Shown piece after piece: positions 87 through 36,473 of a stretch of 37,580 nt of DNA; within the stretch, counting starts at the first letter, position 1; the number at the start of each line of letters is the position of its first letter. The notes beneath the pieces are model-generated. The model did not search any database and was not told where the DNA came from. It saw nothing but the letters and a program-made list of their open reading frames with translations. Where the stretch lies: NCBI GenBank assembly GCA_016868015.1, contig VGIF01000013.1, positions 1 to 37,580 of the forward strand, read 5' to 3'. A program made the position numbers and the translations under genes. This stretch comes from Betaproteobacteria bacterium (GTDB lineage: Bacteria > Pseudomonadota > Gammaproteobacteria > Burkholderiales > SG8-41).

Positions 87-257
87 CGTCCGGACACTAC
101 TGATGGCCAGCAATAAATAAATCGTCAGCGTGACATACAGCGGCTCGGGAAATTTCAGATCGCTTTTCACCAACGTCGCCGCCACGCCCATGGCGAAAAA
201 CAGCAGCGCCGGGGACAACAGATTTGCGGCTAATGCGTCTAAAAATCCGGATTCCAT
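75..257 (-). pseudogene. Truncated sodium-dependent bicarbonate permease (SbtA/DUF897-like), N-terminus only
   Basis: The 60-residue frame begins MESGFLDALAANLLSPALLF and continues through LKFPEPLYVTLTIYLLLAIS. This matches the start of SbtA/DUF897 permeases: a first membrane helix, then a short S/D-rich loop with (F/I)PEP and a second helix. Those proteins have over 300 residues and continue with a glycine-rich stretch after LLAI. Here the similarity ends at about base 105 and a stop follows after SSVRTLIE. The gene is therefore broken, most likely by an insertion or deletion whose other side is the foreign-looking tail at 3-86. It lies downstream of rnfH on the same strand. A copy of the AT-rich dispersed motif abuts its ATG directly. 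Family recognition is from memory and moderately sure. Confidence 0.6.
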
Positions 258-285
258 AAAATATCAATTAAATCAGCTACTTACG
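258..285 (-). repeat. AT-rich dispersed motif, copy A
   Basis: On the minus strand this reads CGTAAGTAGCTGATTTAATT followed by GATATTTTA and then directly the ATG of the sbtA-like fragment. It matches the core GTAAGTATTTGATTTTATT with a few changes. No Shine-Dalgarno sequence remains between motif and start codon, so the motif itself forms the leader. Confidence 0.6.
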
Positions 286-3053: not shown

Positions 3054-3083
3054 CATAAGTTTTTGATTTGATTTGTTTTTTTA
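3054..3083 (+). repeat. AT-rich dispersed motif, copy F (diverged)
   Basis: Reads CATAAGTTTTTGATTTGATT followed by TGTTTTTTTA. It keeps TAAGT, TTGATTT and the T-run of the core but differs at several positions. It lies in GC-rich intergenic DNA after the coding remnant. Confidence 0.5.
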
Positions 3084-3963: not shown

Positions 3964-4920
3964 TTACTCGGGCTTGATGTTGGCGAGTTTAAATAACGCC
4001 GCCAGCGTTTTGAGATCCTTCCGCAAGAACTCGCGAAACGCTTGCGGCGAACTGCCCGCCGCCATAAAACCGCCGCGCTCCAGAAAATCGCGCATCTTCG
4101 GCTGCTGGATCGCCGTGGCGATCTCCTGCTGCATGCGGCTCGCCACCCGCGCTGGCGTGCCGGCCGGCATGAACACGCCGTGCCACGCCGCTTCGTAAAC
4201 AAAGCCGGGAATCACCTCGCTCATCGCCGGCAACTCCGGCATGCCCGACCAGCGCTTGGCGGCCGAATAGGCCAGCGCGCGCACACGCCCCGACTTGATA
4301 TGCGGCATCACCACCGTGGGCGCGGTAAAAGCCACCTGGATTTCGTTTGCGAGTAAGCCGGTAACCATCGGCGCGAGCCCCTTGTACGGCACATGGACAA
4401 ACTTCGAGCCGGACCTCGAATTGAGGTATTCGCCGAGCAAATGCTGGCTATTGCCGATGCCGCCGGAGCCGAACCGGATATTGGCGTTGGGCTGTTTGGA
4501 CAACTCGATCAGTTCCCCCAATGTTTTTGCCGGCACCTGCGGATTGACCAACACCAAATAGCCGGGCAGCGTCGCCGCCAGCGTCACCGGCGTGAAATCG
4601 TCGATGACATGAAACGGCAGTTTTTTCTGTGCCAGCTGGTTGATGATGAATGAGTTCGAGGTGTAGAGCATGGTGTGGCCGTCGGGCGCCGCGCGCGCCA
4701 CCAACTCGCCGGCGATGATGCCGTTGGCGCCGCCGCGATTGTCGATCACCAGGTTCTGGCCGAACACCGGCTCCAAGTGCACCGCCAGCGCGCGGGCATT
4801 CGCATCCATGCTGCCGCCGGCCGGTTGCGGCACGACCACGCGTATCGGACGTGTCGGGTATTGCTGCGCCGCCGCCGCGCCCGCCGTCAGCGCCGCGGCC
4901 CAAATCAAGCTTTTGCTCAT
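3964..4920 (-). CDS. Bug-family (TctC-like) periplasmic solute-binding protein 1
   Basis: A 318-residue periplasmic receptor of the tripartite tricarboxylate transporter family. An N-terminal signal peptide (MSKSLIWAAALTAGAAAAQQ) is followed by the family landmarks YPTRPIRVVVPQPAGGSMD, VDNRGGANG, AAPDGHT and FVHVPYKG, which form the ligand pocket between two alpha/beta lobes. Bug proteins usually bind small carboxylates, aromatic acids or amides; this ligand cannot be told. I start at ATG 4920 (a TTG six bases upstream is possible). The start lies nine bases after the stop of the AroQ-like gene, so the two form an operon and the receptor may feed that enzyme's pathway. Confidence 0.9.
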   Translation of the reverse strand: MSKSLIWAAALTAGAAAAQQYPTRPIRVVVPQPAGGSMDANARALAVHLEPVFGQNLVIDNRGGANGIIAGELVARAAPDGHTMLYTSNSFIINQLAQKKLPFHVIDDFTPVTLAATLPGYLVLVNPQVPAKTLGELIELSKQPNANIRFGSGGIGNSQHLLGEYLNSRSGSKFVHVPYKGLAPMVTGLLANEIQVAFTAPTVVMPHIKSGRVRALAYSAAKRWSGMPELPAMSEVIPGFVYEAAWHGVFMPAGTPARVASRMQQEIATAIQQPKMRDFLERGGFMAAGSSPQAFREFLRKDLKTLAALFKLANIKPE

Positions 4921-5526: not shown

Positions 5527-6528
5527 CTAGTCCACGCGCAACACCAAGCGCTTGATCACCGGTTCCCAGCGAGCGGCTTCGGCGCGCATCAGCGCGCTGA
5601 GTTCTTCCGGCGTGCCGCCGATCACCTCCATGCCCGCGGCGAACAAACGCCCGCGCACGCGCGCTTCGGCGAGCACCTCGCGTATATCGCGATTAAGTTT
5701 CGCCACCACCGCCGGCGGCGTGCCGGCCGGCGCGACGATGCCGTTAAACAACGGCGCCTGGACACCGCGCACGCCCTGCTCGGCGAAGGTTGGCACATCG
5801 GGCAGCCCGCGCGAGCGCGCGGCTTCAACCAGGCCCAAAACCTTGAGCCGCCCGGCGGCGGCGAGTTCCTTGACATTGGCATAAGCCGCGAACAAGGCCT
5901 GCGCATCACCCGCAAGCAGGGCTTGCGTGGCCGCCGGACCGCCGCTATACGGCACATGCGTTAAGCCCAAACCCGCTTGCGATTTAAACAGCTCCATCGC
6001 CAAATGCGACGCGCTGGCGTTGCCCACCGAGGCGTAGTTGTAAAGGCCGGGCTTGCCTTTAACGTCGGCAACGAATTCGGCGAGCGTGCGCGCCGGATGC
6101 ACCGCGCTCACGGCCAGCACATGCGGCTGCGACACCGTGGCCACCACCGGCGCAAAATCGCTGAGCGGCTTATACGGCAGCGCGCGAAATAAAAACGGCG
6201 CGGTGGCGAGCGGCCCGTTAAAACCGGCGAACAAGTGGTGGCCATCGGGCGCGGCGCGCGCGACTTCGGCCGCCGCTATGGTGCCGCCCGCGCCGGGCTT
6301 GTTTTCGACCAGCACCAACTGCGCCATGCGCTCGCGCAAGCCCTCGGCGATCACCCGTGCCGCGATATCGACCGAGCTACCCGCGGGCGTGGGCACCACC
6401 AAGCGCACGGGTTTTGTGGGAAAGGTTTGCGCGTGCGCACGGTGCGCGATCATCGGTAACAGCGTCGCAGCCGCGCCTGCGGCGAATATCAGAGCCGTGC
6501 GCATGAAGATTGAATTGGTACGGCACAT
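5527..6528 (-). CDS. Bug-family solute-binding protein 2
   Basis: A periplasmic TctC-like receptor of 333 residues. Landmarks: signal peptide around MRTALIFAAGAAATLLPMIA ending HRAHA, then FPTKPVRLVVPTPAGSSVDI, ENKPGAGGTIAAAEVARAAP, DGHHLF, THVPYSGGPAATQALLAGD and a C-terminal RWEPVIKRL helix. VPYSGG replaces the usual VPYKG. The start is uncertain: ATG 6528 (with GGTGG upstream) or ATG 6504, and both leave an intact signal peptide. The gene stands alone on the minus strand. It is divergent from the HpcH/HpaI aldolase, with a 143-base spacer that probably holds both promoters, so receptor and aldolase may serve one substrate. Confidence 0.88.
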   Translation of the reverse strand: MCRTNSIFMRTALIFAAGAAATLLPMIAHRAHAQTFPTKPVRLVVPTPAGSSVDIAARVIAEGLRERMAQLVLVENKPGAGGTIAAAEVARAAPDGHHLFAGFNGPLATAPFLFRALPYKPLSDFAPVVATVSQPHVLAVSAVHPARTLAEFVADVKGKPGLYNYASVGNASASHLAMELFKSQAGLGLTHVPYSGGPAATQALLAGDAQALFAAYANVKELAAAGRLKVLGLVEAARSRGLPDVPTFAEQGVRGVQAPLFNGIVAPAGTPPAVVAKLNRDIREVLAEARVRGRLFAAGMEVIGGTPEELSALMRAEAARWEPVIKRLVLRVD

Positions 6529-6631: not shown

Positions 6632-6663
6632 CGTAAGTGATTGATTTAATTTATGTTTTTAAA
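6632..6663 (+). repeat. AT-rich dispersed motif, copy B
   Basis: Reads CGTAAGTGATTGATTTAATT then TATGTTTTTAAA. Its 3' end merges with the AAAGGA ribosome-binding site of the aldolase gene at 6672, so the motif forms the leader just upstream of translation. Confidence 0.65.
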
Positions 6664-8494: not shown

Positions 8495-8525
8495 CAAAAA
8501 ATATCATTTAAAATCAAATACTTAC
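8495..8525 (-). repeat. AT-rich dispersed motif, copy C
   Basis: The minus strand reads GTAAGTATTTGATTTTAAAT then GATATTTTTTG. This is an exact match to the first 16 bases of the core. It lies between the tail-tube-like gene and the exported protein at 8612, in the orientation opposite to both. Confidence 0.7.
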
Positions 8526-11370: not shown

Positions 11371-12324
11371 CTATTTCACCATGCCCAGTTCGCCCATCAG
11401 CGCCTTCAACTCGCTCGCTTGCGCGGCGAGAAATTTGCGCATGTCGGCGCTGCCGAGATAATTCGCCACCCACTGGTTTTTGTGCATTTCCTTGGCGAAG
11501 TCGTCGTTCGCCGCGACTTGCCGATAGACATTTTCCCAGTACGCCACCTGCGCCGCCGACAAACCGCGCGGCCCCACCATGCCGCGCCAAGTCGGCACGT
11601 CCGCCAGATCGCCGGCGACGCGCTTGGGCGCGGCGATCGCCAGTATGCGCACCTTGCCCGCGCGGCGCTGCGCCACCGGCGCCGCGGTAGTGGACATCAT
11701 CACATCGATATGGCCGCCCAGCAGCGCGCTCATCGAATCACCGCCGGATTTGAACACCACCGTTTTTAAACGCCGCGGATCGGCGCCCGCCGCCTTGGCC
11801 GCCATCACGATCGCGAAGTTGCCCCCGCCGGTGAGCGAGGGCACGCCCACGCTCACCGATTGCGGATCCTTGCGCAGCCGCGCGAGCAAATCCTGCCCTG
11901 ATTTGATCGGCGAATCCGGCGTCACCGCGGCGACGATGTACTCCTCGAACAAATTAGCGAGCGGCGTCAAATCGACGTGGCTGATCGCGCTCACGCCGAG
12001 CAGATGATTGGTGATCAGCGGCACGGCGAGCAGCATGGTGTAGTGTGCATCGCCCGGCTGTTGATTCAGATAGGCATAACCGATGGCGCTGCCGGCGCCG
12101 GGTTTATTCACCACCGCCGAAGCGACATCGATCAGCTTGCGCTCCTGGATCAGCCGATGCACAAAGCGCGCCGCGCTATCCTGCCCGCCGCCGGGACTGG
12201 TGCCGACAACGATCTCGACGTTTTTATCCGGCCGCCACGCGGGGGCTTGCGCGTGCACACCGAGCGTGATCACGGCTATCGAGCACGCGCAAGCGCGCAA
12301 CCACAACGGTGTTTGGTATCTCAT
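11371..12324 (-). CDS. Bug/TctC-like solute-binding protein 3 (divergent subgroup)
   Basis: A 317-residue receptor with a signal peptide (LRACACSIAVITLGVHAQA). It departs from the other nine. It has WRPDKNVEIVVGTSPGGGQD, NKPGAGSAIGYAYLNQQPGD instead of PDGYT, and LKTVVFKSGGDSMSALLGGH where the others have HVPYKG. These features are typical of the TctC subgroup that sits nearer true tricarboxylate receptors. The start ATG has GGGGAGAAAG upstream. It lies between another Bug gene (12412) and the altered SDR (ten bases downstream), all on the minus strand. The ligand is unknown. Confidence 0.85.
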   Translation of the reverse strand: MRYQTPLWLRACACSIAVITLGVHAQAPAWRPDKNVEIVVGTSPGGGQDSAARFVHRLIQERKLIDVASAVVNKPGAGSAIGYAYLNQQPGDAHYTMLLAVPLITNHLLGVSAISHVDLTPLANLFEEYIVAAVTPDSPIKSGQDLLARLRKDPQSVSVGVPSLTGGGNFAIVMAAKAAGADPRRLKTVVFKSGGDSMSALLGGHIDVMMSTTAAPVAQRRAGKVRILAIAAPKRVAGDLADVPTWRGMVGPRGLSAAQVAYWENVYRQVAANDDFAKEMHKNQWVANYLGSADMRKFLAAQASELKALMGELGMVK

Positions 12325-12367
12325 CGCTTTCTCCCCGCTAATGTTTACGGATCATTAGAATTAATTC

Positions 12368-12397
12368 AACCTATTGATTTTATTGATGTTTTTAAGG
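12368..12397 (+). repeat. AT-rich dispersed motif, copy D (diverged)
   Basis: Reads CAACCTATTGATTTTATTGA then TGTTTTTAAG. TATTGATTTTATT and the T-run are kept, but the GTAAGT end is lost. It sits between two Bug genes, 14 bases from the stop of the one at 12412. Confidence 0.5.
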
Positions 12398-12411: not shown

Positions 12412-13377
12412 TTATTCTGGGGTGATGCCCGCCGCCTTCACCACCTTGGCCCACTTCGCTACCTCGTTACGCAAGTAAACGGCATAGTCGTCGGGCTTGC
12501 GCCCGCCCAGTTGCGCGCCGCCCGGCGACAAGCGTTCGCGCACCGCAGGCAGCGCCAGCACGCGCACCGTCTCGCCGTGCAATCGGCCGACGATGTCGCG
12601 CGGCACGCGAGCGCCGGTGAAAAAACCGAACCATACACCAGACTCATAACCTGGCACGCCCGACTCGGCCACCGTTGGCACATCGGGAAAATCCGCGAGG
12701 CGTTGAGCCGAGGCGATACCGATCATGCGTAAGCGGCCCGCCTGCACCAGCGGCGCCACCGCCAGCACCATGCTGAACTGAAAATGCACATGCCCCGCGG
12801 CGAGATCCATCAGCGCCGGCCCGGTGCCCTTGTACGGCACGTGCTCGGTTTTCACGCCTGCGAGCAAGCTGAACTGCACACCCGCCAAATGATTGGTGCC
12901 GCCCACGCCCGCCGACGGATAGAGCAGTTCGCCGGGTTTGGCGCGCGCGAGCTTCGCCAACTCGCCCGCGTTACGCACCGGCAGTGATGGATGAATCACC
13001 AGCGTAAACGGCGCTTGCACCACGTCGGTGATCGGCGCGATGTCGCGAAACGTGTCGTAGGGCAGCGTGCGATGCGTGCTGGGAAAAATCACAAACGAGC
13101 TGGACATCAGCATGGTGGTGTGGCCATCGGGCGGCGCCTTGGCCGTAAGATCGATGCCGAGTATGCCGCCGGCGCCGCCGCGATTATCGACGATAATTTG
13201 CTGGCCGAGGAACTCCGATAAACGCGGCGCCAGCGTGCGCGCGGTGGCGTCGGCCGGGCCGCCGGCGGCGAACGGGACGATCATGCGGATGGGTTTGGCG
13301 GGGTAGGTCTGCGCACAGGTATTGCCGACCAACACCATGGCGCTGGAAAGCATCAACGATTTCCAAATCGGAAGCAC
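12412..13377 (-). CDS. Bug-family solute-binding protein 4
   Basis: A 321-residue periplasmic receptor. The signal peptide MLPIWKSLMLSSAMVLVGNT (then CAQ) is followed by YPAKPIRMIVPFAAGGPADA, VDNRGGAGGILGIDLTAKAP, PDGHTT, TEHVPYKGTGPALMDLAAGH and a C-terminal EVAKWAKVVKAAGITPE. I accept the GTG start at 13377 because GGGAGG lies just upstream and the next ATG (13353) would remove the positive charge of the signal peptide. It is the first gene of a minus-strand group with Bug 3 and the altered SDR. The alpha/beta hydrolase gene upstream on the same strand is separated by a repeat pair. Confidence 0.9.
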   Translation of the reverse strand: MLPIWKSLMLSSAMVLVGNTCAQTYPAKPIRMIVPFAAGGPADATARTLAPRLSEFLGQQIIVDNRGGAGGILGIDLTAKAPPDGHTTMLMSSSFVIFPSTHRTLPYDTFRDIAPITDVVQAPFTLVIHPSLPVRNAGELAKLARAKPGELLYPSAGVGGTNHLAGVQFSLLAGVKTEHVPYKGTGPALMDLAAGHVHFQFSMVLAVAPLVQAGRLRMIGIASAQRLADFPDVPTVAESGVPGYESGVWFGFFTGARVPRDIVGRLHGETVRVLALPAVRERLSPGGAQLGGRKPDDYAVYLRNEVAKWAKVVKAAGITPE

Positions 13378-14430: not shown

Positions 14431-14620
14431 TTCGCCACAGATTTCACAGATTAACGCAGATTTAAAGCTAACACTGTCGTTCCCGCGTAGGCGGGAACCC
14501 ATAACACAGTGCCACTGGCAAAACGGCCCCCAACCTACCTTCCCCGAGGGGAAGGGGATACCCCGCCTACGCGGGAATGACAACGGTGATGTTGAATCTG
14601 CGTTAATCCGCGCGAATTCC
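14431..14620. repeat. Composite nested repeat, copy 1
   Basis: Outer arms: TTCGCCACAGATTTCACAGA then TTAACGCAGATTT on the left (14431-14464) and AATCTGCGTTAATCCGCG on the right (about 14594-14611). Inside is a GC-rich unit (14474-14583) that begins GTCGTTCCCGCG and ends CGCGGGAATGAC, with the middle stem CCTTCCCC/GGGGAAGG. A closely similar arrangement recurs at 24580-24815. The right outer arm runs into the last codons and stop of the Bug gene ending at 14603. Confidence 0.65.
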
Positions 14621-15565
14621 CGCCTGCTTAATCACCCGCGCCCACATCGCCACTTCCTCGGTGATCACTTTTTTAAACTGCTCCGGCGTGCTCGCCACCA
14701 CCTCGGCGCCGTCCTTGGCGAAACGCTCGACCACATCGGGTGCTTTCGCCGCGCGCACCATGTGTTCGTTCAAGATTTTGATGATCGGCGCGGGCGTGGC
14801 CACTGGCGCCACCACGCCCACCCAACTGTTGAATTCATACTGCGGCGCGCCGGACTCCGCCACCGTCGGAATGTTCGGAAACCGCGGCATGCGCTTGGCG
14901 CTGGTAACCGCCAACACGCGCAGACGATTGGAATGCACAAAACCCGCCGCTGCCACCACCGCGAGCGCCGCCATATCGACCTCACCCGACATCAGCGCGA
15001 CCAGCGCCGGCCCGCCGCCCTTATACGGCACATGCACGTAGCGGGTGCCGGTTTGCGAGGCCAACAACTCGACCGCGAGATGGGCGATGCCGCCCGCGCC
15101 GGCAGTGCCGAATTTGATCGTGTCGGGCTGCCTTTTCGCCAGCACGATCAACTCTTTGACCGTTTTCACCGGCACCGAAGGATGCACCGCGATGAAACTC
15201 GGCGAGGACGCCACCACACTCACCGCCGCAAAATCACGCTCCGGGTGATACCCCAGTTTGGGAAACAGCGAAATATTCGCCACCAAGGCCAACGTGTTCG
15301 CGAGCAAGGTATAACCATCGCCCGGCGCGCGCGCCACCAGTTCCATGCCAAGGTTGGTGGAAGCGCCAGGCCGCGACTCCAGCACCACGCTCTGCCCTAG
15401 CGTCTCGCTCATGCGCGGCGCGATCACCCGCATCACGGTGTCGATGCTGCCACCCGGCGGCACCGGTAGCACCACGCGGATGGGTTTGGCGGGGAACACG
15501 CCGGTTTGCGCGGCGGCGGCAGTGCTGAGTACCGGGATCAAAACACCCAACACCATGCGTTTCAT
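14603..15565 (-). CDS. Bug-family solute-binding protein 5
   Basis: A 320-residue receptor. The signal peptide MKRMVLGVLIPVLSTAAAAQ is followed by FPAKPIRVVLPVPPGGSIDT, ESRPGASTNLGMELVARAPG (a variant of the usual DNRPGA), DGYTLL, RYVHVPYKGGGPALVALMSG and EVAMWARVIKQAGIRAD. ATG 15565 is preferred over GTG 15571 because it gives a normal basic signal peptide. Its last codons and stop are contributed by the right arm of a repeat (see 14431-14620), so the original C-terminus may have been altered. It is followed by the alpha/beta hydrolase on the same strand, about 200 bases away. Confidence 0.9.
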   Translation of the reverse strand: MKRMVLGVLIPVLSTAAAAQTGVFPAKPIRVVLPVPPGGSIDTVMRVIAPRMSETLGQSVVLESRPGASTNLGMELVARAPGDGYTLLANTLALVANISLFPKLGYHPERDFAAVSVVASSPSFIAVHPSVPVKTVKELIVLAKRQPDTIKFGTAGAGGIAHLAVELLASQTGTRYVHVPYKGGGPALVALMSGEVDMAALAVVAAAGFVHSNRLRVLAVTSAKRMPRFPNIPTVAESGAPQYEFNSWVGVVAPVATPAPIIKILNEHMVRAAKAPDVVERFAKDGAEVVASTPEQFKKVITEEVAMWARVIKQAGIRAD

Positions 15566-16714: not shown

Positions 16715-16748
16715 CGTAAGTATTTGATTTTATTAATTATTTTTTAAA
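16715..16748 (+). repeat. AT-rich dispersed motif, copy E
   Basis: Reads CGTAAGTATTTGATTTTATT then AATTATTTTTTAAA; this is a full match to the core. It lies two bases beyond the stop of the minus-strand Bug gene at 16751, pointing toward it. Confidence 0.75.
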
Positions 16749-16750
16749 CG

Positions 16751-17761
16751 CTATTCCGGCTGTATGCCAGCCTCGCGTATCGCAGCGCCCCAGATGCGGT
16801 GTTGATCTTTGACCCAGTTATCGAGCCATTCGGGCGTGGAACTTTCGCCGGCGAACGCTTGTTGCTCGAGTTGCGCGCGGATGTCGGCGCGTTTGAGCGT
16901 TGCAACGATTTCGCGATTCAAGCGCTCGATCACGGCCTTGGGCGTCTTGGCCGGCGCGAACACGCCGCACCACGGCGTGATGCTGAATTTCGGCAAGCCC
17001 GCCTCCAGCACCGTGGGCACGTTGGGCAACAAGGGGCTGCGTTTTGCCAATGCCAGGGCCAGCGGCCGCAAACGGTTGTCGCGCAAATGCCCCGCCACCG
17101 TGGCATACGAGCTCATCATCACTTGCACTTGCCCGGAAATCAAATCCAGCACCGCCGGCGGTTCGCTGCGATACGGCACGTGCGTGAGTTTCACCCCCGC
17201 TTGCGAGAACATCATCGCCGACAACACAATGCTGCTGGTGTTGCCGCTGGCGTAGTTCAACTTCGCCGGATGGGCGCGCGCATGATCGAACAACTCGCGC
17301 AGCGTTTTTACCGGCACGCTGGGGTGCACCGCCAGCAAAAACGTGTAATAGCCCGCCATCGAAATCGGCGCGAAATCGCGCAACGGGTCATACGGCAGAC
17401 TCTTGCGCAAATGCGGCACGGCCGACAGCGGGCTGTTGGTCGCCGCCAGCAGCGTGTAGCCATCCGCCGGCGCCTTGGCCACCATGTCGCCGGCCAATGC
17501 GCCGTCGGCGCCGGGGCGGTTGTCGACCACAAAAGGCTGCCCCAGCGCTTGCTGCATGGACTGCGCCATGATGCGCACGATGATATCGGTGGACGAGCCG
17601 GCGCCAAACGGCACCACAAAACGCATCGGTCGCGTGGGGTATTGCGCATACGCGAACTGCGCGGCCACTGCGCAGCCCGCGGCAACGATCAACGGTAGCT
17701 TGGAAAACCGCATGGATAACTTCATGGATAACCTCATCGACAACCTCATTGACAATCTCAT
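16751..17761 (-). CDS. Bug-family solute-binding protein 6 with a repeated N-terminus
   Basis: A 336-residue receptor. Landmarks: YPTRPMRFVVPFGAGSSTDI, VDNRPGADGALAGDMVAKAP, ADGYTLL, THVPYRSEPPAVLDLISGQV and IWGAAIREAGIQPE. VPYRSEP replaces VPYKGxGP. The N-terminus is unusual. Five in-frame 12-base units (17702-17761) encode (M-R/K-L/F-S) repeats, so five ATGs precede the hydrophobic signal-peptide core LPLIVAAGCAVAAQFAYA. I start at ATG 17761, which has TAGGTG just upstream and lies nine bases after the stop of Bug 7; any of the repeats could be used. The gene is probably co-transcribed with Bug 7. Confidence 0.88.
   Translation of the reverse strand: MRLSMRLSMRLSMKLSMRFSKLPLIVAAGCAVAAQFAYAQYPTRPMRFVVPFGAGSSTDIIVRIMAQSMQQALGQPFVVDNRPGADGALAGDMVAKAPADGYTLLAATNSPLSAVPHLRKSLPYDPLRDFAPISMAGYYTFLLAVHPSVPVKTLRELFDHARAHPAKLNYASGNTSSIVLSAMMFSQAGVKLTHVPYRSEPPAVLDLISGQVQVMMSSYATVAGHLRDNRLRPLALALAKRSPLLPNVPTVLEAGLPKFSITPWCGVFAPAKTPKAVIERLNREIVATLKRADIRAQLEQQAFAGESSTPEWLDNWVKDQHRIWGAAIREAGIQPE
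17702..17761 (-). repeat. Tandem 12-base repeat carrying start codons
   Basis: Five units on the minus strand: ATGAGATTGTCA, ATGAGGTTGTCG, ATGAGGTTATCC, ATGAAGTTATCC and ATGCGGTTTTCC. They form the first codons of Bug 6. The unit length is a multiple of three, so gain or loss keeps the frame but changes the number of positive charges ahead of the signal peptide. Confidence 0.85.
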
Positions 17762-17770
17762 CACCTATGC

Positions 17771-18733
17771 TTAGTTCGCGGTGGCGCCGGTCAACCGCAC
17801 CAGCTTTTCGTAGCGGTCGTAATCCGCCTTCAAACGCAGCGCAAACTGCTCGGGCGCCATGTACATCGGGTCCAGGGTTTGGCCACCCAAAATCTTGACC
17901 ACGTCGGGATGCTCCAACGCCTTTTTGAATTCGGCGTTCAGGCGATCGACGATCGGCCGCGGCGTGCCGGCGGAAACAAACGCGCCGACCCAAGCCACAA
18001 ACTCGTAATCCTTGATGGTTTCAGCGATAGCGGGCACATCGGGGAACGGTTTTAAGCGCGTGGCCGAAGTCACCCCCAGCGCGCGCACGCGCTTACTCGC
18101 AAGATGCGGCATCACCGAGCCGATGGTGGCGGTCATCGCCTGCGTTTCCCCCGAGGCGAGCGCCACCACCGCCGGGCCGCCGCCCTTGTACGGCACATGC
18201 ACCATTTGAGTTTGTGTCATCGAATTAATCAACGCCATCGCCAGATGCACAAAGCTGCCGCTGCCCGAGGAAGCGTAGACCACTTTGCCCGGCTGCGCGC
18301 GCGCCAGCGCGACGAACTCCTTCACGTTCTTCACCGGCAGCGACGGATGCGTAACCAGCATGCCCACTTGCACCGCGAGCGTCGTCACGCCGGTGAAATC
18401 CTTCAACGTGTCGTACGGCAGCTTTCTGTAAAGGTGCGGGTTGGTGATGTGCGCCGCGGAATGCACCATGAGGGTGTAGCCATCGGCGAGCGCTTTCACC
18501 ACCGCGTCGGCGCCGATGGTGCCGTTAGCGCCGCCGCGATTGTCGACGATGAACTGCTGCCCGGTCTGTTCACTCAGGCGCTGCGCCATGACGCGCCCGA
18601 CGATATCGTTCGCGCCGCCCGGCGGCCAGGGCACCACCACGCGCACCGGCTTCACCGGATAGTTTTGAGCTGCCACCGAAAACGCCGCCACGCAAACCGT
18701 CACGCCAAACACAAAATTCAATTTATTTCGCAT
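17771..18733 (-). CDS. Bug-family solute-binding protein 7
   Basis: A 320-residue periplasmic receptor. The signal peptide MRNKLNFVFGVTVCVAAFSV (AA, Q) precedes YPVKPVRVVVPWPPGGANDI, VDNRGGANGTIGADAVVKAL, ADGYTLMVHSAAHITNPHLY, MVHVPYKGGGPAVVALASGE and DYDRYEKLVRLTGATAN. GGAG about seven bases upstream of ATG 18733 supports this start over a TTG/ATG further out. It shares many segments with Bug 8 (VPWPPGG-ND-VGR, VKxVKEFVALARAxPG, YKKLPYD/YRKLPYD, KYGKLIR/RYEKLVR), so the two are probably recent tandem duplicates. It is followed by Bug 6 nine bases downstream. Confidence 0.92.
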   Translation of the reverse strand: MRNKLNFVFGVTVCVAAFSVAAQNYPVKPVRVVVPWPPGGANDIVGRVMAQRLSEQTGQQFIVDNRGGANGTIGADAVVKALADGYTLMVHSAAHITNPHLYRKLPYDTLKDFTGVTTLAVQVGMLVTHPSLPVKNVKEFVALARAQPGKVVYASSGSGSFVHLAMALINSMTQTQMVHVPYKGGGPAVVALASGETQAMTATIGSVMPHLASKRVRALGVTSATRLKPFPDVPAIAETIKDYEFVAWVGAFVSAGTPRPIVDRLNAEFKKALEHPDVVKILGGQTLDPMYMAPEQFALRLKADYDRYEKLVRLTGATAN

Positions 18734-18784: not shown

Positions 18785-19750
18785 TCAGTCCACCTTGACC
18801 CCCGCCGCCCGAATCAGCTTGCCATATTTCTCAAAATCGGCGCGGATGCGCTGCGCGAATTCCTCCACCGTACCGGGCATCGGGTCGAGCATCTGCGCGG
18901 TCAAACTGTGCGCCACATCGGGATGCTTTAACGCCTTGTTCGCCTCGGCGTTCAAACGCTCGATGATGGCGCGCGGCGTATGGGCCGGCGCGTAGACGCC
19001 AATCCACGGGCTCATTTCGTAGCCCGGCACGCCGGCTTCGGCGATGGTCGGCACATCGGCCAGCAGCTGGGCGCGCCGCGCCGAAGACACCCCCAGCGCG
19101 CGCAAACGCCCCGTTCTCAAATGCGCGATCACCGTCGAGATGGTTGCAAGCGATGCCTGCGCTTCGCCGCCCACCAGCGCCGTTACCTGCGGCGCGCCGC
19201 CCTTGTAGGGCACGTGCACCAGGTCGATGCCGGTCATCGACACCAACAACGCCATCGACAAATGCGGCGAGCTGCCGTTGCCCGAGGACGAATAGTTGAT
19301 TTGCCCGGGCCGCGCCCTGGCGAGCGCGACAAATTCCTTCACGCTTTTCACCAGCAACGACGGATGCACCACCAGCGCGCCCGGCTGGGCGGCCAGCGTG
19401 CCCACGGGCGCGAAATCGCGAATCACATCGTACGGCAGCTTTTTGTAGACATGTTGATTGCCCAAGTGCGTGGTCGAATGCACCATGATGGTGTAACCAT
19501 CCGGAGGCGCTTTGGCCACCGGCTCGGCGCCGATCGCGCCCGAGGCACCGGGGCGATTGTCGACGACGAACTGCTGCCCCAGCGATTCGCCGACTTTCTG
19601 CATGACGATACGCCCCACGGCATCGTTCGACCCGCCCGGCGGCCACGGAATGACCACACGCACCGGCTTGACCGGCCAGGTTTGCGCCGCCGCGCCCCCT
19701 GCAAACACAAAAAAAGCGCTCAGCGCGAGCGCGATCCCTCGACTCTGCAT
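18785..19750 (-). CDS. Bug-family solute-binding protein 8
   Basis: A 321-residue receptor. The signal peptide MQSRGIALALSAFFVFAGGA (AAQ) precedes WPVKPVRVVIPWPPGGSNDA, VDNRPGASGAIGAEPVAKAP, PDGYTIMVHSTTHLGNQHVY, LVHVPYKGGAPQVTALVGGE and FEKYGKLIRAAGVKVD. The start is firmly set by GGAGGAGG eight bases upstream. It is the first of three consecutive minus-strand Bug genes (8, 7, 6) with short spacers, which suggests one transcript. It closely resembles Bug 7. Having three receptors and no permease in one run is unusual for a TTT operon. Confidence 0.92.
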   Translation of the reverse strand: MQSRGIALALSAFFVFAGGAAAQTWPVKPVRVVIPWPPGGSNDAVGRIVMQKVGESLGQQFVVDNRPGASGAIGAEPVAKAPPDGYTIMVHSTTHLGNQHVYKKLPYDVIRDFAPVGTLAAQPGALVVHPSLLVKSVKEFVALARARPGQINYSSSGNGSSPHLSMALLVSMTGIDLVHVPYKGGAPQVTALVGGEAQASLATISTVIAHLRTGRLRALGVSSARRAQLLADVPTIAEAGVPGYEMSPWIGVYAPAHTPRAIIERLNAEANKALKHPDVAHSLTAQMLDPMPGTVEEFAQRIRADFEKYGKLIRAAGVKVD

Positions 19751-22275: not shown

Positions 22276-23247
22276 TTATTGCGCCGTCAAGCCCGCGGCT
22301 TTGATCACCTTGGCCCATTTGTCGTGTTCGGACTTCATATAGGCGCCCAGTTCCTGCGGCGAGCTGGTGCGGATATCGAGGCCTTGGTTGGCCAGCGCCT
22401 TTCTCGAATCTTCAGCTTCCAGAGCCTTGATGATCTCGGCATTGAGGCGCTTGACGATCGCGGCGGGTGTCTTGGCGACGGTGACAATGCCATACCAGTT
22501 GTCCGCTTCATAGCCCGGCAAACCGCTTTCGGCCACGGTCGGCAAATCCGGTAGCGCGCGCGAACGCTGCGCGGTGGTCACGGCCAGCGCGCGCAGCTTA
22601 CCGGCCTTCACCTGCGGCACGGCGGTCGCCGCCGATGCGAATATCACTTGCAGGCGTCCCGCCAGCAAATCGAGCATTGCGGGGGCGCCGCCCTTGTACG
22701 GCACATGCACCATCTTGCCGCCGATCATGTTCAGGTAAAGCTCGGTGGCCAAATGCCCCGCGTTGCCGGCGCCGGATGAGCCATAGGAGAGCTTGTCCGG
22801 ATTGCCTTTGATAAACGCGGTGAGTTCCGCCAGCGTCTTGTACGGCGTGGCGGCATTTACCGTCACCAGATTGCCTTGCGAGGTGGTGAGCGCGATGGGC
22901 GCGAAATCGCGCATCGGATGAAAGCTCAAGCCCTTGTAGAGCAGCGTGTTCACCGCCAGCGCGCCCATCGAACCGGTCAACAAGGTGTAGCCATCGGGTG
23001 CCGCCTTGGCGACAATTTCCGCCGCCACGCTGCCCGCCGCGCCGCCACGGTTATCCACCACCACTTGCTGGCCAAACGCTGCCGAGAGCTTGGGCGCCAC
23101 TACCCGTGACACCGCGTCCAGCCCGCCACCCGCCGCCGCCGCCGACACCAGCCGGATCGGCCGGTTCGGATAATCCGCCGCATGCGCCGGGATTTGCGCA
23201 CCCACCAACACCAATGCACCACACCACACCAAATGACGATTTGACAC
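22276..23247 (-). CDS. Bug-family solute-binding protein 9
   Basis: A 323-residue receptor. A GTG start at 23247 is supported by AAAGGAAG eight bases upstream and by the resulting signal peptide VSNRHLVWCGALVLVGAQIP (AHA). Landmarks: YPNRPIRLVSAAAAGGGLDA, VDNRGGAAGSVAAEIVAKAA, PDGYTLLTGSMGALAVNTLL, MVHVPYKGGAPAMLDLLAGR and HDKWAKVIKAAGLTAQ. SAAAAGGGLD replaces VPxxAGGxxD at the first ligand-binding loop, so its ligand may differ. It is divergent from the amidohydrolase at 23486 across a 238-base gap that holds a copy of the AT-rich motif. Confidence 0.9.
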   Translation of the reverse strand: MSNRHLVWCGALVLVGAQIPAHAADYPNRPIRLVSAAAAGGGLDAVSRVVAPKLSAAFGQQVVVDNRGGAAGSVAAEIVAKAAPDGYTLLTGSMGALAVNTLLYKGLSFHPMRDFAPIALTTSQGNLVTVNAATPYKTLAELTAFIKGNPDKLSYGSSGAGNAGHLATELYLNMIGGKMVHVPYKGGAPAMLDLLAGRLQVIFASAATAVPQVKAGKLRALAVTTAQRSRALPDLPTVAESGLPGYEADNWYGIVTVAKTPAAIVKRLNAEIIKALEAEDSRKALANQGLDIRTSSPQELGAYMKSEHDKWAKVIKAAGLTAQ

Positions 23248-23357: not shown

Positions 23358-23390
23358 TCAAAAAAATATGTTTAAAATCATATACTTATG
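23358..23390 (-). repeat. AT-rich dispersed motif, copy G
   Basis: The minus strand reads CATAAGTATATGATTTTAAA then CATATTTTTTTGA. It lies in the divergent gap between Bug 9 and the amidohydrolase. Confidence 0.65.
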
Positions 23391-24579: not shown

Positions 24580-24815
24580 GCCACGGATTTCACGAATTTA
24601 CACAGATTAAATTCAAAAACCTAGACGCAGATTTACGCAGATGAACGCAGATTTCCCGACCACCCTGTCGTTCCCGCGCAGGCGGGAACCCATAACGCCG
24701 GTTCCACTGGCAAAACGGCCCCCAACCTACCTTCCCCCAGGGGAAGGGGATACCCGCCTGCGCGGGAATGACACCGACAGTTAATCCGCGTAAATCTGCG
24801 TTAATCTGCGTCGAA
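24580..24815. repeat. Composite nested repeat, copy 2
   Basis: The inner unit (24665-24775) is nearly identical to that at 14474-14583, including GGCAAAACGGCCCCCAACCT and the central CTTCCCC/GGGGAAG stem. The outer arms are ACGCAGATTTACGCAGATGA then ACGCAGATTT on the left (24624-24653), preceded by CACGGATTTCACGAATTTAC (24582-24601), and AATCTGCGTTAATCTGCGTC on the right. The GMC gene begins 14 bases after the right end. Confidence 0.7.
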
Positions 24816-26430: not shown

Positions 26431-26460
26431 CGTAAGTATTTGATTTTATTATATTTATTA
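26431..26460 (+). repeat. AT-rich dispersed motif, copy H
   Basis: CGTAAGTATTTGATTTTATT then ATATTTATTA, starting on the base after the GMC stop codon. It is one of the best copies of the core. Confidence 0.75.
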
Positions 26461-26516: not shown

Positions 26517-26600
26517 CGTCGTTCCAGCGCAGGCTGGAACCCATAACACACGCGCCACTTGAGACCACACATGGGTTCCCGCCTGCACGGGAACGACAGG
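26517..26600. repeat. dRS3-like inverted repeat pair
   Basis: GTCGTTCCAGCGCAGGCTGG (from 26519) and its facing partner GGGTTCCCGCCTGCACGGGA ending in ACGACAGG (26574-26600). The arms are imperfect (CCAGC versus CCCGC), unlike the perfect pair at 31790. It lies between the GMC gene and the SDR. Confidence 0.65.
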
Positions 26601-27429: not shown

Positions 27430-28404
27430 TTATCCGGCAATATCGGGGAGCGGCACCCCCAAGCCCGACGCCACTGCCCTCTCATACACCCGCACCGCCA
27501 ACGCCACATCTTCAATCGCCACCCCCAGCGATTTGAATATCGTAATGTCCTCGCGCGCAGTGCGCCCCTTGAGGCGCCCCGCCACCACCTGCGCCAGCGG
27601 GTGCACATTCTCCCACCGCAGCAAGCCGGCTTTCACCGGCTCGGCCAGATCGCTCGATTCATAGCGCACTTGTTCGATGTCGTCGGCGCAAATGAATTTC
27701 GCTGCGCACACGGCATCGCGGTCGAGTTCGCGGCGGTGTTCGTAGTTGGCGCCGATGGCGTTGATGTGCGCGCCGGGTTTTAGCCAGTCGCCCAGCACCA
27801 CCGGCGTCTCGGACGTGGCGGCGCTTACGATCACGTCCGCGCCACGCACCGCCGCCTCTGCGGTGTCAACAGGTACGTATTTGATTTTATTAAATTTTTT
27901 AAAATCGGCGCAAAATGCCTCGCGATGCGCTTGGTTCGGGCTAAACACTCGCACCTCGCGGATCGGCCGCACTTTGCACACGGCTTCGACTTGCGTGCGC
28001 GCTTGGCGGCCGCTGCCCAACACGCCCAACACTGCGGCATCTTCGTTCGCCAAATATTTGGTTGCAACACCACTCGCGGCACCGGTGCGCAACGCGCCCA
28101 TCGCGAACACTTGCACGATAGCCACCAGCGCGCCGCAGTCTTCGCGATACAAACAAAACATGCGCCCGGCATCGCGGCCAAACACCGCCGTGCTGGAAAT
28201 TTTCACGCCGTAGTAGCCGCGATACGTGAGCACCGCCGCGGTGATGCGCACGATGCCGCCCTTTACCGGCACGCGCACACGCGGGACGTTGGTGACATTG
28301 GCGTCGCTCGTGCCTTGCGCGTGGAAGACTTCTTCGACGGCGGCTAGAGCGTCGTCCAAGGTGATTAGGTTTTTGATGCAGGCTTCGTCGATTAACAGTG
28401 GCAT
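27430..28404 (-). CDS. Ornithine cyclodeaminase / mu-crystallin family protein
   Basis: A 324-residue Rossmann-fold protein related to ornithine cyclodeaminase, alanine dehydrogenase and ketimine reductases. The N-terminal MPLLIDEACIKNLITLDDAL, VPVKGGIVRITAAV, YYGVKISS and the dinucleotide motif AAVLGVLGSGRQARTQVEAV are family features, followed by ADVIVSAATSETPVVLGDWL and the GAHINAIGANYEHRRELD loop. Codons for the DFKKFNKIKYVPVD stretch contain a copy of the AT-rich dispersed motif (27873-27904), on the strand opposite to the coding one. I use ATG 28404; upstream codons belong to a palindromic repeat region. Divergent from MmgE/PrpD. The substrate is unknown. Confidence 0.9.
   Translation of the reverse strand: MPLLIDEACIKNLITLDDALAAVEEVFHAQGTSDANVTNVPRVRVPVKGGIVRITAAVLTYRGYYGVKISSTAVFGRDAGRMFCLYREDCGALVAIVQVFAMGALRTGAASGVATKYLANEDAAVLGVLGSGRQARTQVEAVCKVRPIREVRVFSPNQAHREAFCADFKKFNKIKYVPVDTAEAAVRGADVIVSAATSETPVVLGDWLKPGAHINAIGANYEHRRELDRDAVCAAKFICADDIEQVRYESSDLAEPVKAGLLRWENVHPLAQVVAGRLKGRTAREDITIFKSLGVAIEDVALAVRVYERAVASGLGVPLPDIAG
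27873..27904 (+). repeat. AT-rich dispersed motif, copy I (inside a gene)
   Basis: GTACGTATTTGATTTTATTA then AATTTTTTAAAA, in plus orientation within the minus-strand ornithine-cyclodeaminase-like gene. It keeps that gene in frame and encodes FKKFNKIKY. Only GTACGT replaces GTAAGT. Confidence 0.7.
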
Positions 28405-28473: not shown

Positions 28474-28541
28474 AGCGTATTGCCCTCTCCGCTGCCCCTC
28501 TCCCGCAAGCGGGAGAGGGGCAGCGGAGAGGGCAATACGCT
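28474..28541. repeat. Perfect 33-bp inverted repeat with 2-base centre
   Basis: The left arm 28474-28506 begins AGCGTATTGCCCTCTCCGCT and ends CCTCTCCCGC; the right arm 28509-28541 is its exact reverse complement; the centre is AA. It lies in the 165-base divergent gap between the ornithine-cyclodeaminase-like gene and MmgE/PrpD. It would form a very stable hairpin or cruciform and resembles the GC-rich CCCTCTCCC/GGGAGAGGG intergenic repeats of proteobacteria, but it is unusually perfect. Confidence 0.9.
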
Positions 28542-28569: not shown

Positions 28570-29943
28570 ATGCCCGTCGCCGCCGATCTCGCCCGCCTCG
28601 TCAACCAAACGCGTTACGAAGACCTGCCCGCGTTAGCCATCGACCACGCCGCGATGCTGATCGCCAGCACGATTGCCAGCGCGGGCATGGGACAAAACAT
28701 CCGCTCCGCGCGCATCGTGCGCGAGCTGGTAAAAGAGCAAGGCGGCAAGCCGGAAGCGACGGTGTGGTTCGATGGCGCAAAACTCCCCGCCGTCAACGCC
28801 GCGCGCGCCAACGCGCTGACGAGCGATGCCGCCGCATCGGACGATAGCGACTTGCGCACCATCGCGCACTTGGGCACGCAACTCACCTCCACCACGCTCG
28901 CACTCGCGGAAAAAACCGGTGCGAGCGGCAAGGAAATTCTCGCTGCCTTCGTACCCGCGTATGAAGTCGCCGGGCGCATCGCGGCAGCGATTATTCCGCA
29001 CTATCGCAACCAGGGCTTTCACGGCTCGCTGGCGGTGATTTTCGCGGCCGCCGTCGCCAGCGGCCGTTTGCTGAAATTGAACGACGCGCAAATGTCGCAA
29101 GTTATCGCCATGGCCGCGGTGTCGATGGGCGGGCTGGGCACTGCCGCCGACACCAGCGAAGCGCGCGAATGGTTCGCCGGCAACGCGGCGTTAGGCGGCA
29201 TGAACGCCGCTTACGCCGCGCAAAAAGGCTACGAGGTCGAAGATACGATCTTCGAGACCAAAAAAGGTTTTCTCGATGTCTTCGGTGGCCCCGGGTGTGA
29301 TGCGGGCAGCTTGACGCGCGACTGGGGCCAACAGGATCACAATTGGGACATCGTCACCGACATGGCGATCAAGCTGGTGCCGGGCGGGCACCCCAGCCAC
29401 GCGCTGGGCGAAGCGGCGGCCAATGCCGCGCGCGAAGCGAATGTCGCCGCCGATCAAATCGACAGCATCGTGATGACGCAGCCGTTAAACCCGAAGCTGC
29501 GTACCGGTGTGATGAAGCCGCCCTCGCATCCGAAAAATCTGGTCGATATCGCGCACACACCGGCGTATTTTGTCGCGGCGGGCGTGGCGGACAAAGCGTT
29601 CTCGTGGGTGCATGCGAGCGAAGCGAAAATTCACGACCCGACGATTCACGCGTTGATCGACAAAATCAAAGTCGGCGAACCGATCACGCAAGACGTCCAC
29701 CAATACATGCACGGCGCGCGCGTCACCATTAACACCAAAGCCGGCAAAAGTTTCAGCAACACCGTTTACGCGCCGCGCGGCTCCGGCGTGCGCGGCATCG
29801 AGTGGAAGGATGTCGATGAAAAATACCGCACGCTGGTGGCGTTCACCGGCGCGAGCACGCAGAAAATGAACGACACGCTCGATGTGATACACAACTTTCG
29901 CGAGGCGGCGAACGTGGCGAAGTTAATCGCGTTGATCAGCTAG
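28570..29943 (+). CDS. MmgE/PrpD family protein (2-methylcitrate-dehydratase-like)
   Basis: A 457-residue protein of the MmgE/PrpD family, whose known members dehydrate 2-methylcitrate or isomerise/decarboxylate itaconate and related acids. Landmarks: HAAMLIASTIASAGMGQNIR, ANALTSDAAASDDSDLRTIA, HGSLAVIFAAAVASGRLLKL, GGLGTAADTSEAREWFAGNA, LVPGGHPSHALGEAAANAAR and the C-terminal KMNDTLDVIHNFREAANVAK. I start at ATG 28570, with GAGGA about ten bases upstream; codons further up belong to the palindrome. It precedes Bug 10 by 48 bases on the same strand, so receptor and enzyme are likely one carboxylate-using unit. Confidence 0.92.
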   Translation: MPVAADLARLVNQTRYEDLPALAIDHAAMLIASTIASAGMGQNIRSARIVRELVKEQGGKPEATVWFDGAKLPAVNAARANALTSDAAASDDSDLRTIAHLGTQLTSTTLALAEKTGASGKEILAAFVPAYEVAGRIAAAIIPHYRNQGFHGSLAVIFAAAVASGRLLKLNDAQMSQVIAMAAVSMGGLGTAADTSEAREWFAGNAALGGMNAAYAAQKGYEVEDTIFETKKGFLDVFGGPGCDAGSLTRDWGQQDHNWDIVTDMAIKLVPGGHPSHALGEAAANAAREANVAADQIDSIVMTQPLNPKLRTGVMKPPSHPKNLVDIAHTPAYFVAAGVADKAFSWVHASEAKIHDPTIHALIDKIKVGEPITQDVHQYMHGARVTINTKAGKSFSNTVYAPRGSGVRGIEWKDVDEKYRTLVAFTGASTQKMNDTLDVIHNFREAANVAKLIALIS

Positions 29944-29948
29944 AGCAA

Positions 29949-29980
29949 AAATAAAATATTCAATAAAATCAAACACTTAC
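29949..29980 (-). repeat. AT-rich dispersed motif, copy J
   Basis: The minus strand reads GTAAGTGTTTGATTTTATTG then AATATTTTATTT. It fills most of the 48-base gap between MmgE/PrpD and Bug 10, opposite to their direction. Confidence 0.75.
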
Positions 29981-29991
29981 ATAATTTCATA

Positions 29992-30966
29992 ATGTTCACT
30001 CAGCATGCCCTTCACGCGCTCGCGGCATGTGCGCTCACCACCTGCGCAACGCTTGCGCAAGCGCAAGCCACCTACCCCACGCGCCCGATACGCATGGTGA
30101 TTCCGTACTCGGCCGGCGGCGCCACCGACGTGCCGGGCCGCTTGATCGCACAAAAACTCTCCGACGCCTTCGGCCAGCAAGTCGTGGTCGACAACCGCCC
30201 CGGCGCGGGCAGCGCCATCGGCTCGGAAATCGTTGCGCGCGCGCAGCCCGATGGTTACACGCTGCTGATGACCGGCACGCCGTTCGCGGTGTTGCCCGCC
30301 ATCTACAGCAAACTACCGTTCGATCCCGCGCGCGATTTCGCGCCGGTGATGCCCGTGGCGAGCGCGCCCAATGTGCTGGTGGTGCATCCGTCGCTCGGTG
30401 TGCGCACCACCAAGGAGCTGATCGCCGCCGCGCAAGCCGCACCCGGCAAAATCAACTACGCTTCCGGCGGCACCGGCGGCGCCACGCATTTGTTCGCGTC
30501 GCTGTTTTTGAGCATGGCGAAAATCAACCTGGTGCACGTGCCGTACAAAGGCAGCGGCCCCGCCACCGCGGATTTAATCGGCGGCCACGTCAAAGTGGGC
30601 CTACCCGGCATCGCCATCGTGATCCCGCACGCCAAGGCCGGCCGCATGATCCCACTCGCGGTGACCAGCGCCAAACGCGTGCCGCAACTGCCCGATGTGC
30701 CGAGCATCGTCGAATCGGGCGTGCCGGGGTATGACACGGCGGTGTGGTTTGGCTTGCTCGCGCCGCGTGGCACGCCTGGCGCCGTGATTCAGCGCTTACA
30801 CAACGAAATCGTCAAAGTGTTGCGCTTGCCCGACGTGGAAAACGGCTATCTGATTGCCGGCTATGTCGCCTCAACCTCGCGCCCCGACGAATTTGCTGCG
30901 TTTCTCCAAACCGAAATCGTGAAGTGGGGGCGCGTGGTGCGCGAGGCGAAGATACAAGGGGAATAA
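29992..30966 (+). CDS. Bug-family solute-binding protein 10
   Basis: A 324-residue receptor, the only one of the ten on the plus strand. The signal peptide MFTQHALHALAACALTTCAT (LAQAQA) precedes YPTRPIRMVIPYSAGGATDV, VDNRPGAGSAIGSEIVARAQ, PDGYTLLMTGTPFAVLPAIY, LVHVPYKGSGPATADLIGGH and VKWGRVVREAKIQGE. The usual PYDPxRDFAP reads PFDPARDFAP. It follows MmgE/PrpD at 48 bases. No clear ribosome site is visible because the AT-rich motif takes up the gap; translation may be weak or coupled. The ligand is unknown but probably a carboxylate handled by the MmgE/PrpD enzyme. Confidence 0.92.
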   Translation: MFTQHALHALAACALTTCATLAQAQATYPTRPIRMVIPYSAGGATDVPGRLIAQKLSDAFGQQVVVDNRPGAGSAIGSEIVARAQPDGYTLLMTGTPFAVLPAIYSKLPFDPARDFAPVMPVASAPNVLVVHPSLGVRTTKELIAAAQAAPGKINYASGGTGGATHLFASLFLSMAKINLVHVPYKGSGPATADLIGGHVKVGLPGIAIVIPHAKAGRMIPLAVTSAKRVPQLPDVPSIVESGVPGYDTAVWFGLLAPRGTPGAVIQRLHNEIVKVLRLPDVENGYLIAGYVASTSRPDEFAAFLQTEIVKWGRVVREAKIQGE

Positions 30967-31749: not shown

Positions 31750-31789
31750 GAGCGTTCCTTTTGCAACGAAAATTTACTAAATCACCACT

Positions 31790-31869
31790 GTCGTTCCCGC
31801 GCAGGCGGGAACCCATAAGCCCGTCTCATATGGCACTGGGTTATGGGTTCCCGCCTGCGCGGGAACGAC
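31790..31869. repeat. Perfect 29-bp inverted repeat, dRS3-like
   Basis: Arm GTCGTTCCCGCGCAGGCGGG then AACCCATAA (31790-31818) is exactly reverse-complementary to 31841-31869, with a 22-base spacer. Each arm contains its own TTCCCGC/GCGGGAA stem. It lies between the GST and the racemase-like gene. Confidence 0.9.
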
Positions 31870-31896
31870 ACCAGTACCTTTGGTCGGCAAATCGAA

Positions 31897-36440: not shown

Positions 36441-36473
36441 TATAAGTATTTGATTTTAAACGATTTTTTAAAA
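36441..36473 (+). repeat. AT-rich dispersed motif, copy K
   Basis: TATAAGTATTTGATTTTAAA then CGATTTTTTAAAA, 46 bases before the VOC gene start. The 3' part forms a stem CGATTTT/AAAATCG (36461-36476). Confidence 0.65.

Follow-up and report, generated by a model that had tools for sequence, protein, structure and literature searches.

Introduction

Short repeated motifs read by an architectural protein are known from the matS/MatP system, in which matS occurs in few copies and in one region, and IHF sites are also carried by REP/BIME-type repeats (RIP/RIB), which are palindromic and have a longer sequence in common. The array described here consists, like matS, of a short repeated motif, but was present on nearly every stretch examined (one of 41 had no site); like RIP/RIB it is interspersed, mostly intergenic and apparently linked to IHF, whereas its copies are non-palindromic and share the site alone. 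With the IHF sites of E. coli, as passages of PMC8421141 and PMC9519438 describe their consensus and A-tract, it shares the consensus WATCARNNNNTTR, an A-tract on the same side and a site length of ~35 bp; for E. coli a passage of PMC8421141 gives a figure of about 300 consensus sites, against about 890 close copies here. Unlike the E. coli sites, the array has base preferences in the spacer, phased flanks, even spacing and gaps filled by sites within genes. With the DUS/USS of the Neisseriaceae and Pasteurellaceae, going by excerpts of PMC1939737 and PMC3630211, it has in common a copy number in the hundreds to thousands, occurrence in both orientations, evenness of spacing and species dialects; in contrast to these, its motif fits the site of an intracellular protein, 77% of its sites are intergenic and its flanks are phased. 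The type of site is already known, and what appears to be new is the array: in the open-licence literature searched, we came across no description of IHF sites arrayed evenly along a chromosome and shifting in dialect.

Results

An AT-rich motif is repeated in both orientations

The window is one entire contig of 37,580 bp from a 4.55-Mb assembly, 97% complete, of an uncultured bacterium. The initial annotation had noticed an AT-rich motif inside an ornithine-cyclodeaminase-like (OCD-like) gene with the reading frame intact, and this was confirmed: the copy at 27874-27900, TACGTATTTGATTTTATT followed by an A/T tail, codes for DFKKFNKIKYV in an open frame. Using the pattern TAAGTATTTGATTTTATT with at most three mismatches, 10 matches were found in the window versus 0.02 expected from shuffles, and a weight matrix added an eleventh, weaker site. 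Assembly-wide, the pattern matched 890 times (444 forward, 446 reverse) versus once for the reversed pattern. A chance AT-run was ruled out as an explanation of the motif by these two comparisons and by the homologues described below. The sites of the window, found by pattern and matrix alike except where stated, and the gene under study are as follows.

257-283, minus strand: array site, intergenic
3056-3082, plus strand: array site, intergenic
6634-6660, plus strand: array site in a divergent gap
8498-8524, minus strand: array site, intergenic
12367-12393, plus strand: weaker array site, intergenic, weight matrix only
16717-16743, plus strand: array site, intergenic
23362-23388, minus strand: array site in a divergent gap
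26433-26459, plus strand: array site, intergenic, nearest neighbour (1441 bp) of the copy at 27874-27900
27430-28404, minus strand: OCD-like gene holding the site under study, the family name being that of the initial annotation, by likeness only
27874-27900, plus strand: array site under study, motif positions 1-27, antisense within the OCD-like gene
27874-27886: putative IHF core of this site, read on the complementary strand
27895-27900: A-tract of this site, on the complementary strand
29953-29979, minus strand: array site, intergenic
36443-36469, plus strand: array site in a divergent gap

The motif fits the IHF consensus

A weight matrix was built from 181 sites, collected over 837,580 bp solely by their likeness to the repeat and with no IHF seed; it showed conservation over about -7 to +31, with weak A/T waves alone outside. 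Read on the complementary strand, the motif consists of an A-tract, AATAAAATCAA, NNNN and TTA, and this unseeded consensus fits the published IHF consensus, the R positions included. With position 8 scored as T or C, the array sites were 95-99% conserved at the bases read by E. coli IHF. Variation at the R positions was almost solely A versus G, and the four N positions ranked among the core's least conserved, although the spacer also had fixed base preferences. In a second set of 251 sites from 1.13 Mb (a quarter of the genome), which was seeded with the IHF core, 212 matched the 13-bp IHF consensus exactly; outside this set, 23 intergenic and 40 coding exact matches were found, versus 8 and 37 for a control pattern. 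The A-tract upstream of the consensus had A or T at all six positions in 81% of the sites, and we take it to match lambda H' in register. The A/T content of the flanks oscillated with periods of 10.75 and 10.25 bp on the two sides, reached in 0 of 1000 shuffles on each side, with peaks clear to about -14 and +49 and fainter beyond; farther out, phasing was weak at -100 to -61 (P 0.023, with the period at the limit of the range allowed) and not significant at 85 to 130 (P 0.59). Both ihfA and ihfB are encoded in the genome. From the consensus, the A-tract and the phased flanks we infer that the array motif is a putative IHF binding site.

The sites are evenly spaced

Over the quarter of the genome analysed, the coefficient of variation (CV) of the spacings was 0.551, versus 0.836 when the sites were reassigned at random to gaps within their own contig, none of 1000 reassignments being as low, and 11 spacings were shorter than 1 kb versus 32.5 expected. 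The evenness held at four score cut-offs (0 of 300 each) and in an earlier, smaller sample. It recurred in a second genus, with 45 sites in 400 kb of G019 (CV 0.545 versus 0.910, 0 of 1000); the matrix control was high in that genome (12 versus 52 at score 25), so that some of the 45 sites may be false, which would merely blur the spacing. Pooled relatives gave a CV of 0.676 versus 0.885 (0 of 500). Evenness was weaker in relatives taken singly, and the separate tests gave 63 of 500 for G001 alone (121 of 1000 in an initial, small sample), 12 of 500 for G001, G007 and G008 together, 46 of 500 for G003 and G002, 8 of 500 for five sparser species and 36 of 500 for G018, with three spacings. The density was one site per 4.5 kb here, per 8.9 kb in G019 and per 2.2-2.7 kb in G001, and a mean spacing that differs two- to fourfold between species indicates that no fixed physical length is kept.

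The sites within genes were consistent with this regularity. Among the 26 sites lying at least 60 bp inside a gene, 15 had neighbours on both sides; the site-free intervals around these averaged 8766 bp, versus 6045 bp for random coding positions (P 0.001), and the sites lay near the middle of the interval (mean offset 0.124 versus 0.242, P 0.001). Lying midway in long intervals, they suggest that coding sequence is used where the spacing calls for a site. The copy in the OCD-like gene was the least isolated of the 15, its distance of 1441 bp to the nearest neighbour being the shortest.

A putative chromosome-wide array of IHF sites

On the sequence evidence, we consider it fairly probable that about a thousand strong, putative IHF sites form a chromosome-wide array that is held evenly spaced by selection and organizes the nucleoid. 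The sites would lie mostly between genes, and within genes chiefly where no intergenic site is near; IHF would bind each of them and bend the DNA into a U-turn (a bend of about 160 degrees, according to a passage of PMC8421141), and the regular kinks or loop anchors would compact and partition the nucleoid of a lineage that bears IHF and seemingly lacks HU. Simulations described in PMC9519438 have IHF bridges dividing DNA into topological domains. The even spacing would result from selection that disfavours both long site-free stretches and sites too close together, with coding sites filling the gaps, and the whole set of sites would shift when IHF changes. On this view the OCD-like gene holds a member of the array that arose by base substitution, in a variable loop of the protein that tolerates the imposed residues. 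If the proposal holds, it would bear on whether bacterial chromosomes receive a regular architecture, coded in their sequence, from nucleoid-associated proteins: such an architectural code would be legible in plain sequence, with a density varying from one site per 2 to 9 kb and a dialect varying among relatives, and spacing, domain size and the co-evolution of protein and site would be accessible to comparison, ChIP and Hi-C.

Distribution of the array, HU/IHF genes and ComEC

Genomes with at least 25 strict matches, both dialects counted, were scored as site-rich. By this measure 38 of the 74 genomes of the family were site-rich, namely 13 of 14 in genus g1 and all of g6 (1), g7 (21) and g8 (3), and the other 36 had 0-22 strict matches. 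Elsewhere in the order, across 291 genomes from other families, no count stood out from its control as it did here, and in 368 other genomes of the class the top count was 76 (control 15), versus 704 here. Among the genomes examined, the arrays were thus found only in part of one family.

HU/IHF-family genes (PF00216) numbered at most two in 36 of the 38 site-rich genomes (three in G331 and G345) and at least three in 21 of the 36 site-poor genomes of the family. In the 13 site-rich genomes in which both PF00216 genes were read, they were IhfA and IhfB; two HU proteins from other families, scanned likewise, had HU as their best family but fell below the NCBIfam cut-off. The lineage has IHF and seems to lack HU, and no account of such an HU-less group was found in the open-licence literature. 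At least three PF00216 genes were present in 276 of the 291 genomes of other families, the remaining 15 having no array, and four of the five genomes of genus g4 lacked both a third HU/IHF-family gene and an array. Such array-free genomes with at most two PF00216 genes indicate that the absence of HU is not sufficient for an array; across the few independent lineages and many incomplete assemblies compared, it may permit the array rather than cause it.

The main alternative is a new DNA uptake sequence, spread evenly over the chromosome by uptake into competent cells and recombination, with species dialects. The roughly 1000 copies, the even spacing, the equal orientations and the one-base dialect shift described below would all suit it, and ComEC, the one competence gene examined, was present in 37 of the 38 site-rich genomes. 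However, ComEC was as usual in the site-poor genomes (31 of 36; 68 of 74 in the family as a whole) and, being nearly universal in the family, does not decide for or against this reading; one genome with an array (G330, 91% complete) had no ComEC match. Nor would an uptake sequence be predicted to have the IHF consensus, the A-tract or an A/T phasing that reaches to about 50 bp. To our knowledge, the array motif is unlike known DUS/USS motifs. Even spacing has been described for known uptake sequences (PMC1939737); according to that paper, Karlin took it to point to replication, repair or compaction, whereas the authors themselves judged uptake sequences less even than compaction would require. 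On balance we regard an uptake sequence as unlikely; it would stand outside the two families that the cited papers name, Pasteurellaceae and Neisseriaceae, and the open-licence literature searched held no account of an uptake sequence in Burkholderiales.

One genome, G009, was placed in g1 and yet had no array, three PF00216 genes and no ComEC match; it fits the IHF and the uptake readings alike, and may be misplaced in g1.

Placement between and within genes

Genes were called with a home-made gene caller (88% coding). The 251 sites comprised 193 intergenic ones (77%), 52 in called genes, half of which (26) were the deep ones considered above, and 6 at contig edges. A strand-polar replication signal was rejected, as 122 sites followed the strand that carries most of the local coding sequence and 129 opposed it (the contigs being unoriented), as was an alternating orientation of neighbouring sites (98 same, 113 opposite). 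Deep inside genes, 19 sites were antisense and 7 sense, an excess that needs no special cause because the motif, read in the sense direction, contains TAA and TGA in two of three frames.

The placement bears on the possibility that the copies are ordinary IHF regulatory sites, each helping to control an adjacent promoter within a large regulon. Such a regulon would share the fit to IHF, and many sites do lie, in conserved places, in gaps that bear promoters. Yet convergent gaps, which need no promoter, were as dense in sites (1.61 per kb) as tandem (1.60) and divergent ones (1.30), site orientation was independent of gene direction, and in tandem gaps the closer gene end was the stop for 62 sites and the start for 33; regulatory sites would also not be expected to space evenly. 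We therefore judge a regulon distinctly unlikely. A promoter or terminator element was ruled out likewise, since gap type and orientation made no difference.

Inheritance in place and a one-base dialect

Synteny was compared in two blocks, the comEC region (11 genomes) and the ihfA region (10 genomes). In 67 instances, versus 13.3 expected, a given gap held a site in both genomes of a pair, and in 63 of these 67 the orientation was the same. Compared with 134 sites of relatives, the motif differed mainly at position 11, which was A in 95% of the sites here and T in 69% there (divergence 0.411; next-highest position 0.088). Strict matches with A and T numbered 686 and 18 here, 151 and 665 in G001, 70 and 457 in G003, and 41 and 345 in G018; in five gaps shared with relatives, all five sites here had A and 17 of the 18 sites of the relatives had T. 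A shift in nearly all sites implies that hundreds of sites changed together. An A bias was also found in one genome of g7 (G342, 78 versus 7 among 85 strict matches).

The switch hits a classical consensus position, as might be expected if the motif were the site of another nucleoid or segregation protein that resembles the IHF consensus by chance. Against this, the consensus, the degenerate positions and the A-tract all fit IHF, and the E. coli ChIP-type variants given in passages of PMC8407004, where the consensus is written TAAnnnnTTGATW as the array motif reads here, include WAWCAAC and so have W at position 11. Another protein thus appears quite improbable.

On the IHF reading, the protein may have changed together with its sites. 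IhfB residue 69 was Pro here and Arg or Lys in 20 other genomes read, and residue 58 was Ser here and otherwise in G002 alone, the genome which, with A in 153 of 371 strict matches, was second to this one among the site-rich members of g1. Aligned to E. coli IhfB, both residues presumably fall in the DNA-binding arm. These IhfB changes accompany the position-11 switch as a correlation in one or two genomes. Given a switch from T to A in nearly all sites alongside the changes at 58 and 69, we tentatively raise the possibility, itself rather doubtful, that the ~1000 putative IHF sites serve as a ruler of the chromosome, held evenly by selection even at a protein's cost in a clade apparently without HU, and rewritten together as a set when the DNA-binding arm of IHF changes.

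Within the ihfA block, the sequence TAACTCCTTGATTTAATT lies between gene families F6 and F7 (L186, L189 and L190); it was identical in G007, G004 and G012 and nearly so in G001, and has retained A at position 11 although the other sites of those genomes have T. It is perhaps an older, putatively regulatory IHF site.

The site inside the OCD-like gene

The OCD-like protein was compared with its nine closest relatives (64-80% identity). An IHF-like AT-rich site was present at the same codons in four of them, G018 (g6), G030 and G019 (both g7) and G031 (g8), and absent from five (G028, G006, G013, G033 and G009), in which the codons and residues differ at this place. On the motif strand the versions read TACGTATTTGATTTTATT in the window, TAAGTAATTGTTTTTATT in G018, TATCGCATTGATTTTATT in G030, TAATACATTGATTTTATT in G031 and TAAGCATTTGATTTTATT in G019; those of G031 and G019 matched the IHF consensus exactly, and the other three, the window copy among them, were one base away. 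None of the site-less homologues was shorter, all being of equal length except that of G013, which was three residues longer, so that the site appears to have been gained or lost through substitution and not insertion. The initial annotation had offered two readings of this copy, and the second, a functional site whose position matters, gained support from its retention in four homologues from three other genera and from the strongly even spacing of sites in the genome. Nor did the refutation test set by the initial annotation refute it: all four homologues encoding the NK(I/N) stretch also carried the AT-rich site, and none of the five site-less homologues encoded that stretch.

The first reading, a mobile miniature repeat inserted into the gene, was not borne out and is very improbable: numerous near-identical interspersed copies would be typical of one, but neither an insertion nor a target duplication was seen, no homology was shared beyond about -7 to +31, sites were inherited in place in both syntenic blocks and evenly spaced, and the motif-free genes were not shorter, so that the hallmarks of a mobile repeat (shared ends, target duplication, empty sites) were lacking. 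That the copy merely reflects a Lys/Asn-rich loop in need of AT-rich codons is hardly credible either: AAA is the usual Lys codon of the gene (12 to 2) and the NK(I/N) residues do accompany the site, but the five site-less homologues have other residues here, the G018 version carries the dialect of its genome (T at position 11, as in most G018 sites, with Asn replacing Ile), and that of G031 matches the family-wide pattern exactly. This codon evidence, synonymous codons included, is modest to weak, G018 being a single case.

Other features

The OCD-like gene and the next gene, at 28570-29943, share a perfect 33-bp inverted repeat (2-bp loop) just upstream of both, and a second repeat family consists of GC-rich, REP-like palindromic elements around TGTCGTTCCCGCGCAGGCGGGAACCCATAAC, partly in close inverted pairs. 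Ten paralogues resembling Bug-type tripartite tricarboxylate receptors were recognized by eye from translations and repeat families.

28474-28541: inverted repeat
14464-14514, 24666-24696, 26518-26550, 26571-26600 and 31789-31870: TGTCGTTCCCGCGCAGGCGGGAACCCATAAC elements
3964-4920, 5527-6504, 11371-12273, 12412-13353 and 14603-15565: Bug-like paralogues 1 to 5
16751-17725, 17771-18733, 18785-19750, 22276-23211 and 29992-30966: Bug-like paralogues 6 to 10

Three metagenome-assembled genomes titled Chitinophaga pinensis or Bordetella parapertussis (L110, L112 and L119) grouped by their OCD-like gene with the Burkholderiales family, and their titles are probably mislabelled.
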